This document shows, in pieces, positions 9,948 through 15,223 of a stretch of DNA of 64,000 bases (its first letter is position 1; each line of letters begins with the position of its first letter). The translations under genes were made by a program, and so were the position numbers. The notes under the pieces are model-generated. The model was given only the letters and a program-made list of their open reading frames with translations, searched no databases and was not told the origin of the DNA. This stretch comes from Roseomonas gilardii (GTDB taxonomy: Bacteria; Pseudomonadota; Alphaproteobacteria; Acetobacterales; Acetobacteraceae): contig NZ_CP015583.1 in assembly GCF_001941945.1 (NCBI RefSeq), forward strand, positions 3,800,001-3,864,000, in the 5' to 3' direction.

Positions 9948-9965
9948 CTGTCATGAATCCATCAT
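9948..9965 (+). promoter_or_regulatory. Pho box upstream of phnC
   Basis: CTGTCAT-GAAT-CCATCAT: two 7-mers on an 11-bp period. The first is identical to the PhoB consensus half CTGTCAT and the second matches 5 of 7. It ends 69 nt before the phnC start. Known from the family: PhoB binds such tandem 7-mers and activates phosphate-starvation genes. Confidence 0.65.
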
Positions 9966-13914: not shown

Positions 13915-14637
13915 TCACGCCGACAGTTCGACGCGGTCGGCGGCGAAGCGGGAGTGGGTGGCCTGGATGGGGCGGCCCTGGGCGTCGGTGTTGACGCTGT
14001 CGAGGACGAGGACGACGCGGCCGGGCGCGAGGTCGAGGGCCTTGGTTTCCTCCGGCGTGGCGTGGCGCGCGGTGATGCGGGTGGAGCGGCGGAGGTAATC
14101 GGTGACGCCGTAGGAGGCGTAGGCGCGGGTGATGGAGCCGGTCTCGGCATAGCGCTCGGCGAAGCCGGCGAAGCGCGGCAGGGGCAGGCGGGTGAGGCCG
14201 GTGGAAATGGGCACGCCATCGGCTTCGTGCAGCGTGTCGAGCTCCAGGACGGGGCTGCCTGGCGGCAGGTCCAGCGCCTCGGCCAGCGCGGGGTCGGCGG
14301 TGATCTCCCGGGCGGAAAGCAGCCGGCCCCAGGCCTCGCGCCCTGCGGCGGTGGCGATCTCGGAGAAGCGGGTGCGCGGCCCGATCGGATAGCGAAGTGG
14401 CGGGGCCTCGACGAAGGTGCCACTGCCCTGGGTGGCACGGACCAGGCCGCGCTCGGCCAGGGCGGAAAGAGCACGGCGGACGGTGTGGCGGTTCACGCCA
14501 TGTTGGGCGGCGAGCTGAGCCTCCGTGGGCAGGCGCTCGCCGCGCCGGAAGCGGCCAGCGGCAATCTCGCCCTCCAGCCCGTCGGCTATGCGCTTCCAGG
14601 CGGCGATCCCGTCGCCACGGCGGAAGGGCGCGTTCAT
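13915..14637 (-). CDS. phnF: GntR/HutC-family regulator PhnF
   Basis: 240-residue transcription factor divergent from phnG. The N-terminal winged helix (about residues 10-75) includes GERLPTEAQLAAQHGVNRHTVRRALSAL. It is followed by a UTRA/HutC-type ligand domain containing LDTLHEADGVPISTGLTRLPLPRF and ending in the SVNTDAQGRPIQATHSRFAADRVEL segment typical of PhnF. ATG at 14637 is preferred over a TTG two codons upstream. It probably represses phnG-N and itself through the palindrome at 14680-14699. Confidence 0.92.
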   Translation of the reverse strand: MNAPFRRGDGIAAWKRIADGLEGEIAAGRFRRGERLPTEAQLAAQHGVNRHTVRRALSALAERGLVRATQGSGTFVEAPPLRYPIGPRTRFSEIATAAGREAWGRLLSAREITADPALAEALDLPPGSPVLELDTLHEADGVPISTGLTRLPLPRFAGFAERYAETGSITRAYASYGVTDYLRRSTRITARHATPEETKALDLAPGRVVLVLDSVNTDAQGRPIQATHSRFAADRVELSA

Positions 14638-14655
14638 CGGCAATGAATCATCGAA

Positions 14656-14673
14656 TTGTCACTGGCTCGTCTT
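14656..14673 (+). promoter_or_regulatory. Pho-box-like site of the phnG promoter
   Basis: TTGTCAC-TGGC-TCGTCTT: first 7-mer 6/7 and second 4/7 to the PhoB half-site, 11-bp period. It ends 11 nt before a good -10 (TATACT, 14685-14690), the spacing expected for a PhoB-activated promoter lacking a -35. Confidence 0.5.
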
Positions 14674-14679
14674 GTTGAG

Positions 14680-14699
14680 ATGTCTATACTACTAGACAT
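14680..14699. promoter_or_regulatory. PhnF operator overlapping the phnG -10
   Basis: ATGTCTA-TACTAC-TAGACAT: perfect inverted repeat with 7-bp arms and the GTCTA...TAGAC core typical of HutC-type GntR regulators. The -10 TATACT (14685-14690) sits inside it, so bound PhnF would block the polymerase. It lies 23 nt before the phnG ATG and 43 nt from the phnF start. Confidence 0.65.
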
Positions 14700-14722
14700 A
14701 TTCGCAGAGGGGCTTCCGGGCA

Positions 14723-15223
14723 ATGGCGGCAGAGAGCGAAACACGAGACAGGGCCGGGGCGCCAGCCACCCCCGACACGGCAGCGCGGCAGGCGGTGATG
14801 ACACTCTGCGCCGCGGCGACCGGGGCGGAGCTGGAAAGCGCGCTGGCGGCGGTGGGCTATGCCGGGCCGATGGAGGCCAGGGTGCAGGAGCTGCGGCGGC
14901 CGGAAACCGGGCTGGTGATGGTGCGGGGCCGCGCCGGGGGCGATGGGCGCCGCTTCAACCTGGGCGAGGCCACAGTGACGCGTGCCGCGGTAAGGATCGA
15001 GGGCGGGGTGACCGGCTTCTCCTACCTTCTGGGTCGGGATGCGGCGCGGGCACGGCAGGCGGCGGTGCTGGATGCGCTCTGGCAAAGCGCGTCGCATCGT
15101 TCGGCAGTGGAAGCGGCGCTGCGGCCCGTCGCCGCGCGGCGAGAGGCCGAGCGGGCGCGGCAGGCGCGGCAGGCGGCCGCGACGCGCGTGGATTTCTTCA
15201 CCATGGTGCGCGGAGAGGATTGA
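14723..15223 (+). CDS. phnG: C-P lyase subunit PhnG
   Basis: 166-residue subunit of the PhnGHIJ core complex that, with PhnI, transfers the phosphonate onto ATP. The family regions MTLCAAATGAELESALAAVG, MVRGRAGGDGRRFNLGEATVTRAAV and GFSYLLGRDAARARQAAVLDAL are clear, as is the C-terminal TRVDFFTMVRGED. It is the first gene of phnGHIJKLMN. The stop overlaps the phnH start (TGATG). Confidence 0.96.
   Translation: MAAESETRDRAGAPATPDTAARQAVMTLCAAATGAELESALAAVGYAGPMEARVQELRRPETGLVMVRGRAGGDGRRFNLGEATVTRAAVRIEGGVTGFSYLLGRDAARARQAAVLDALWQSASHRSAVEAALRPVAARREAERARQARQAAATRVDFFTMVRGED

Follow-up and report, generated by a model that had tools for sequence, protein, structure and literature searches.

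A putative Pho box and a predicted PhnF octamer array in the divergent phnF-phnG gap of a Roseomonas genome

The 85-bp gap separating phnF (minus strand) from the divergent phnG (plus strand) is proposed to be a composite control region, in which PhoB probably activates a phnG promoter without a -35 element while PhnF, placed over the -10, represses it. From sequence comparison we infer the binding of PhoB and PhnF, the role of TATACT as the -10, the release by a ligand and the resulting logic. An initial annotation of this DNA had already paired PhoB activation with PhnF repression at phnG and had called such two-level control unusually legible. The pairing is supported, as 96 of the family's 109 divergent gaps contain both a Pho box and a PhnF octamer and the exact palindrome has Pho-like boxes next to it in two further alphaproteobacterial lineages. 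The former Pho-box coordinates, the use of TCGTCTT as a half-box and the stand-alone operator are revised here, and the layout is not unusual but the rule among the divergent gaps of the family.

The locus and its predicted elements

The window (the whole stretch of 64,000 nucleotides analysed) comes from an R. mucosa-like genome, whose family we take to be the Acetobacteraceae; its PhnF and that of R. mucosa ATCC BAA-692 are 92% identical. The coordinates of the features are given in Table 1. The nearby genes phnH, phnC, phnD, two phnE genes and phnM all scored above the curated model cut-offs. PhoB is encoded in the genome (TIGR02154, 328.8 bits, cut-off 296.2), and pstC and pstS are also present. 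By sequence, the PDB relatives of the phnF product include DasR (9i0v, 4zs8) and 3f8m/3f8l, of which 3F8M is the PhnF of M. smegmatis (PMC4918961).

Table 1. Features at the phnF-phnG gap and upstream of phnC (window coordinates)
Feature	Position	Strand	Evidence
Strong Pho box CTGTCATGAATCCATCAT before phnC (10035), start of the transporter operon	9948..9965	+	2 mismatches, 23.5 bits
phnF, GntR/HutC-subfamily regulator	13918..14637	-	TIGR02325 C_P_lyase_phnF, 267.6 bits, cut-off 156.8
Proposed Pho box GAATCATCGAATTGTCAC of two units (period 11 bp), the first of them weak	14645..14662	+	9.9 bits, PhoB matrix
Pho box of the initial annotation, TTGTCACTGGCTCGTCTT	14656..14673	+	0.9 bits, PhoB matrix
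Operator segment, aligns to closest relatives far better reversed	14667..14705	-	Local alignment
Predicted PhnF octamer array GTTGAGAT GTCTATAC TACTAGAC, 8-bp register	14674..14697	.	Register test on operators of relatives; assignment in the window by inference
Palindrome ATGTCTA-N6-TAGACAT, ATGTCTATACTACTAGACAT; outer half-sites of two adjacent octamers	14680..14699	.	Sequence reading, genome search, conservation
Candidate -10 TATACT	14685..14690	+	Sequence reading; no -35 of at least 4/6 at 16-18 nt
Likely phnG Shine-Dalgarno AGAGGGG	14706..14712	+	Sequence reading
phnG, first gene of the divergent C-P lyase operon	14723..15223	+	TIGR03293, 147.8 bits, cut-off 89; ORF

Next to the phnF start, a 5-codon open frame (ATG ATT CAT TGC CGA TGA) was seen on the minus strand at 14634-14651, sharing an ATGA overlap with it. 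Its length is unchanged in the close relatives G004 and G007 and its codons are altered; the frame may be what is left of an earlier phnF start.

Pho boxes in the genome, the gap and the family

A PhoB matrix was built from 31 pstS promoters, namely those of the 30 best-scoring loci of relatives and the one of this genome, and its consensus reads CTGTCATCGAAGCTTCAT. The threshold of 8.08 bits is the 99% level from shuffles of a set of 84 family gaps, which comprises the better-scoring PhnF places (30 + 60 loci) without G048. The pstS promoters themselves (L200-L229) show further conservation downstream of the Pho box, namely a third unit CTGCAAT and, counted from the start of the box, a GTC at +35 and a TAG at +50, which suggests a putative PhoB site longer than two units there.

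Genome-wide, the pattern CTGTCAT-N4-CTGTCAT with up to 3 mismatches gave 76 forward and 77 reverse matches (153), whereas the reversed control gave 25 and 26 (51); most single matches to the Pho consensus therefore prove little. Such sites precede a Na/Pi symporter gene, a phytase-like gene, ugpB, pstS and phnC, and of five annotated ORFs downstream of Pho matches two (L129, L130) are not phosphorus genes. The box before phnC is the only site in the window with at least 14 bits.

Between phnF and phnG, the likelier Pho box by matrix score is the one ending at 14662, and its equivalent in G004 reaches 11.9 bits. Its score occurs at 5 of 127966 strand positions of the window and in 1.6% of shuffles of the gap, and it exceeds the 8.08-bit level, though the first half contributes -0.8 bits and the spacer plus second half 10.7. 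Judged within this gap alone, the box is modest evidence for a PhoB site, and the weight comes from the relatives.

The initial annotation had set the repeat 11 bp further downstream. At 14656-14673, 5 mismatches to CTGTCAT-N4-CTGTCAT were counted by eye, the first half scores 9.6 bits and the spacer plus second half -8.7. TTGTCAC, the first half, doubles as the second unit of the proposed box, and the second half, TCGTCTT, derives from the flank of the operator and lies within the inverted alignment described below. As the main PhoB site this repeat was rejected on the matrix scores. G004 differs from the repeat at 2 of 18 positions.

PhoB-activated promoters usually have their -10 at 10-11 nt from the box and no -35. 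The candidate TATACT does lie inside the palindrome and 11 nt after 14673, as had been stated, and this spacing would suit a working Pho box made of TTGTCAC and TCGTCTT; TCGTCTT moreover retains the GTC seen downstream of the box in pstS promoters, and in the window no more than 39 of 127966 strand positions score as high. A box of this composition is nevertheless quite unlikely: 0.9 bits is reached somewhere on either strand in 29% of gap shuffles, and TCGTCTT matches the inverted operator flank and reads TCATCTT in G004. With the proposed box at 14645-14662, TATACT is 22 nt away, compared with 32 nt from the box to the conserved TAG in pstS promoters, and 11 nt away if a weak third unit at 14667-14673 is counted.

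For the relatives, all places matching the PhnF model were examined, 139 in 124 of 249 family genomes, with about 1.2 kb of upstream sequence per place (1.5 kb for the first 30). A divergent phnG was found at 112 places and was absent from this sequence at 27, two of which had less than 500 bases upstream; one PhnF-like gene stands in another context, with no phnG within 1500 upstream bases (L034). Subtracting the three gaps of the mucosa clade leaves the 109 gaps counted here. An earlier tally gave 104 of 107 loci as divergent, in a set that includes duplicates of mucosa-clade loci.

In 98 of the 109 gaps a plus-strand Pho box exceeds the 99% shuffle level, the remaining 11 being below threshold, and no gap has one on the minus strand (0/109). 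The background rate is 0.3% of 2218 single-strand stretches of 150 bp outside the gaps of the 84 loci. Where box and octamer occur together, the octamer starts 57-62 nt after the box in 85 of 96 gaps.

The family box often overlaps the phnF start, with CAT at the expected place of the start codon in 61 of 76 sites, and it was initially considered that the conserved element beside phnF might be nothing but the phnF start region. Start-codon context can inflate the matrix score, as minus-strand matches over the phnG start in Ruegeria show: of 9 loci, whose plus-strand boxes reach 10.1-24.9 bits, 5 have such matches of 12.0-18.2 bits and the others of 4.6-4.8. The start-region idea was set aside because a matrix derived from pstS and a half-box clear of the start codon fit a Pho box. 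The spacer plus second half alone, which is clear of the phnF start codon, has at least 5 bits in 79% of the 76 sites and in 0.26% of 784 background places.

An arrangement in which PhnF alone controls phnG in the mucosa clade, the Pho box having decayed after operator inversion and phosphate control running via the phnC operon, is unlikely, somewhat less so than the downstream box. The score of the phnG box against 23.5 bits at phnC and its negative first half would agree with such decay. However, TCATCGAA-N-TGTCAC is conserved in G004 and G007, and the box is as widespread in the gaps of relatives as stated above.

The palindrome and the octamer array

The perfect palindrome reported by the initial annotation was confirmed in the sequence. 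It is identical at 20 of 20 positions in both G004 and G007, and in the 5.4-Mb genome it is the only copy with 0 mismatches. With 2 mismatches, two other places match in this genome, neither with an adjoining phnF or phnG match (L002, L003), while no match was obtained with the reversed control pattern. Allowing up to 3 mismatches, the window contains no second match; at least one such match arose in 12 of 100 shuffles. Some perfect inverted repeat with 7-bp arms (spacer 0-12) was found in 102 of 3000 gap shuffles. Within the gap alone, the palindrome is thus only moderately rare, and its conservation is the stronger evidence. Because a strong Pho box precedes phnC with no PhnF palindrome elsewhere in the window at up to 3 mismatches, the transporter and lyase operons may respond differently.

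Among 385 alphaproteobacterial genomes, 14 places besides the one in this genome carry the palindrome. Divergent phnF-phnG gaps account for four of them, of which three belong to a single genus and one to another family; within about 1.5 kb of the other 10, phnF or phnG is absent, and at L199 both are absent from the examined locus sequence. Upstream of all four phnF-phnG palindromes, Pho-like boxes in the direction of phnG score 10.0, 7.8, 10.0 and 21.4 bits, the 7.8-bit box being under the 8.08-bit level. The strongest, TTGTCACGAAACAGTCAT in L194, ends 17 nt before the palindrome, which equals the distance from 14662 to 14680 in the window; TATGAA follows 10 nt after this box, and the palindrome starts one base later. 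L194 is a clearer form of the same predicted layout of box, -10 and palindrome. At L189-L191 (one genus, 3 of 3 loci), a reverse-oriented GATGACAG was seen between the Pho-like box and the PhnF palindrome.

Operators of the HutC subfamily have the consensus GTMTAKAC and are mostly of the form GT-N4-AC (PMC4494728). The predicted PhnF operator in the phnF-phnG gap shares this form, in GTCTATAC at 14682-14689, but differs in that octamers recur every 8 bp and so make a wide palindrome. In the family, GTCTAGAC is matched at 7-8 of 8 positions in 107 of the 109 divergent gaps, two missing the octamer, and the best octamer of the three mucosa-clade gaps matches it at 7/8.

Further octamers in register were found at -8 in 64 and at +8 in 42 of the 107 gaps; neighbouring offsets yielded 3 and 4 of 428. 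Matches to GTCTAGAC average 4.6 at -8, 4.0 at +8, 3.1 at -16 and 3.2 at -24, while neighbouring offsets give 1.8-2.2 and the offset +16, with 2.0, is not raised. The off-register offset -31 is also raised (3.46; at least 5 of 8 in 32 of 83), because the TTGAC of the -35 resembles a right half-site. GTCT-N8-AGAC occurs in 23 of 109 gaps, and the full palindrome with W ends in two (L109, L236).

Two octamers placed 8 bp apart yield GT-N12-AC, and the palindrome in the window is therefore best read as the adjacent putative octamers GTCTATAC TACTAGAC of an 8-bp array, not as a stand-alone operator; GTTGAGAT would be a third, weak member. A single 20-bp operator, the form in which the palindrome had first been described, is weakened by the register test. 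As a variant within the preferred explanation, one wide operator (GT-N12-AC) for a single PhnF dimer, in place of two octamers and two dimers, is rather unlikely, though it deserves more credence than the other alternatives considered here. In L036 (PhnF 68% identical) and in L194 the outer half-sites are kept and the inner ones degenerate, and a wide palindrome is on record for SdhR, another HutC-subfamily regulator (PMC4494728). Against it stand the near-canonical GT-N4-AC octamer in nearly all relatives and its additional copies at 8-bp steps.

Promoter model, operator inversion and related systems

In the preferred reading with PhoB and an octamer array, phosphorylated PhoB would bind the box at 14645-14662 under phosphate starvation, perhaps extended by the weak third unit, and would recruit RNA polymerase to the TATACT -10 without a good -35. 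PhnF from the divergent gene would bind the HutC-type array, seen as the 20-bp palindrome. As the array covers the -10 and the start region, bound PhnF would block phnG and probably also phnF, until a phosphonate or a pathway intermediate releases it.

A promoter scan requiring both hexamers did not list TATACT and found no -35 for it. The sole promoter-like match in 14600-14760 was TTGAGA-16-CATATT (14675-14702), which straddles the operator, agrees at 9/12 positions and has a shuffle mean of 0.1. That this ordinary sigma-70 promoter drives phnG without PhoB is the least probable of the alternatives and very unlikely, as its -35 reads TCGAGA in G004 and the start would presumably lie inside the likely Shine-Dalgarno.

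In the relatives, TTGAC[GC]nTA is present in 59 of 109 gaps, and within the 84-gap set the distance from the start of TTGAC to the octamer is 28 bp in 40 gaps and 27-29 bp in 51. In the same set, the TA following TTGACGn carries 1.42 and 1.29 bits, a conservation above that of the -35 itself, and lies in the 8-bp register of the octamers. TTGAC[GC]nTA is absent from all three mucosa-clade gaps, and the lack of a good -35 in this clade suggests that PhoB dependence may be stronger than in the relatives.

The segment 14667-14705 was aligned locally in both orientations. Against L020 (Roseomonas sp. 18066), the reverse orientation scored 51 and the forward 18, the largest score of 2000 shuffles, which preserved base composition and not dinucleotides, being 30. 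The Pseudoroseomonas loci L021 and L022 gave 47 and 41 in reverse versus 18 and 21 forward. L071 and L086 gave 42 and 43 in reverse; their forward scores of 27 and 24 were reached by 0.6% and 1.5% of shuffles, as is expected because the operator is partly palindromic. Of 97 aligned loci, 72 scored higher in reverse and 22 higher forward; L036, otherwise the nearest relative, scored 18 forward and 22 in reverse. In L020 the operator flank GTCTCAACAAGACGA is on the phnG side, and with the segment inverted it is thus on the phnF side in the window, where its reverse complement supplies TCGTCTT.

On these alignments, the operator segment of about 40 bp sits in the R. mucosa clade in the opposite orientation to that of its closest matches. 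Tentatively, this inversion may have accompanied the loss of a TTGACG-type -35 and created a new -10 within the PhnF array, a short distance downstream of the Pho box. A PhnF-repressed, PhoB-assisted promoter would so have become PhoB-dependent and blocked by cooperatively stacked PhnF dimers, an evolved AND gate; we hold this to be less likely to be right than wrong. For promoter rewiring, the inverted form found in one clade amounts to a natural experiment.

At the M. smegmatis phnF-phnDCE divergon, the phosphate two-component system also acts. By description, this divergon resembles the present locus in its GntR-family PhnF and its divergent gene, and differs in that it controls a phosphate transporter and not C-P lyase. 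Its PhnF exerts repression through two sequences that it binds within the bidirectional promoter region (PMC7866108). The E. coli operon phnCDEFGHIJKLMNOP is likewise under PhoB control with an upstream Pho box (PMC10574752, PMC7866108), but there phnF lies inside the operon, and the excerpts of these two papers describe no PhnF operator in a composite promoter. NanR of E. coli, a GntR-type repressor, assembles cooperatively as three dimers on (GGTATA)3 tandem repeats (PMC8012715); it has 6-bp direct repeats and an N-terminal extension, whereas the PhnF array has an 8-bp step and its cooperativity is putative. Pho control of C-P lyase and PhnF repression are each known (PMC10574752, PMC7866108), and relative to the excerpts of these papers their combination is a new variant. 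Titles and abstract openings in the literature gave no description of an alphaproteobacterial PhnF operator; PhnF motifs may be contained in the supplementary site lists of PMC4494728 or in RegPrecise.

The layout is conserved and testable and indicates how phosphate starvation and a pathway-specific repressor may be integrated at the C-P lyase genes of the family. The array of octamers at 8-bp steps is proposed as the PhnF operator, and an operator so defined could aid the search for the ligand in organisms with C-P lyase.

As to the wider genus, the phnG match is only 50-54% identical in 12 of 15 genus genomes (loci L007-L018), and in the 230 bases upstream of these matches no comparable gap was seen by eye. 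The PhnF places of three of these 12 genomes (G009, G011, G014) are without a divergent phnG. The phn cluster of the mucosa clade may have been gained from elsewhere.
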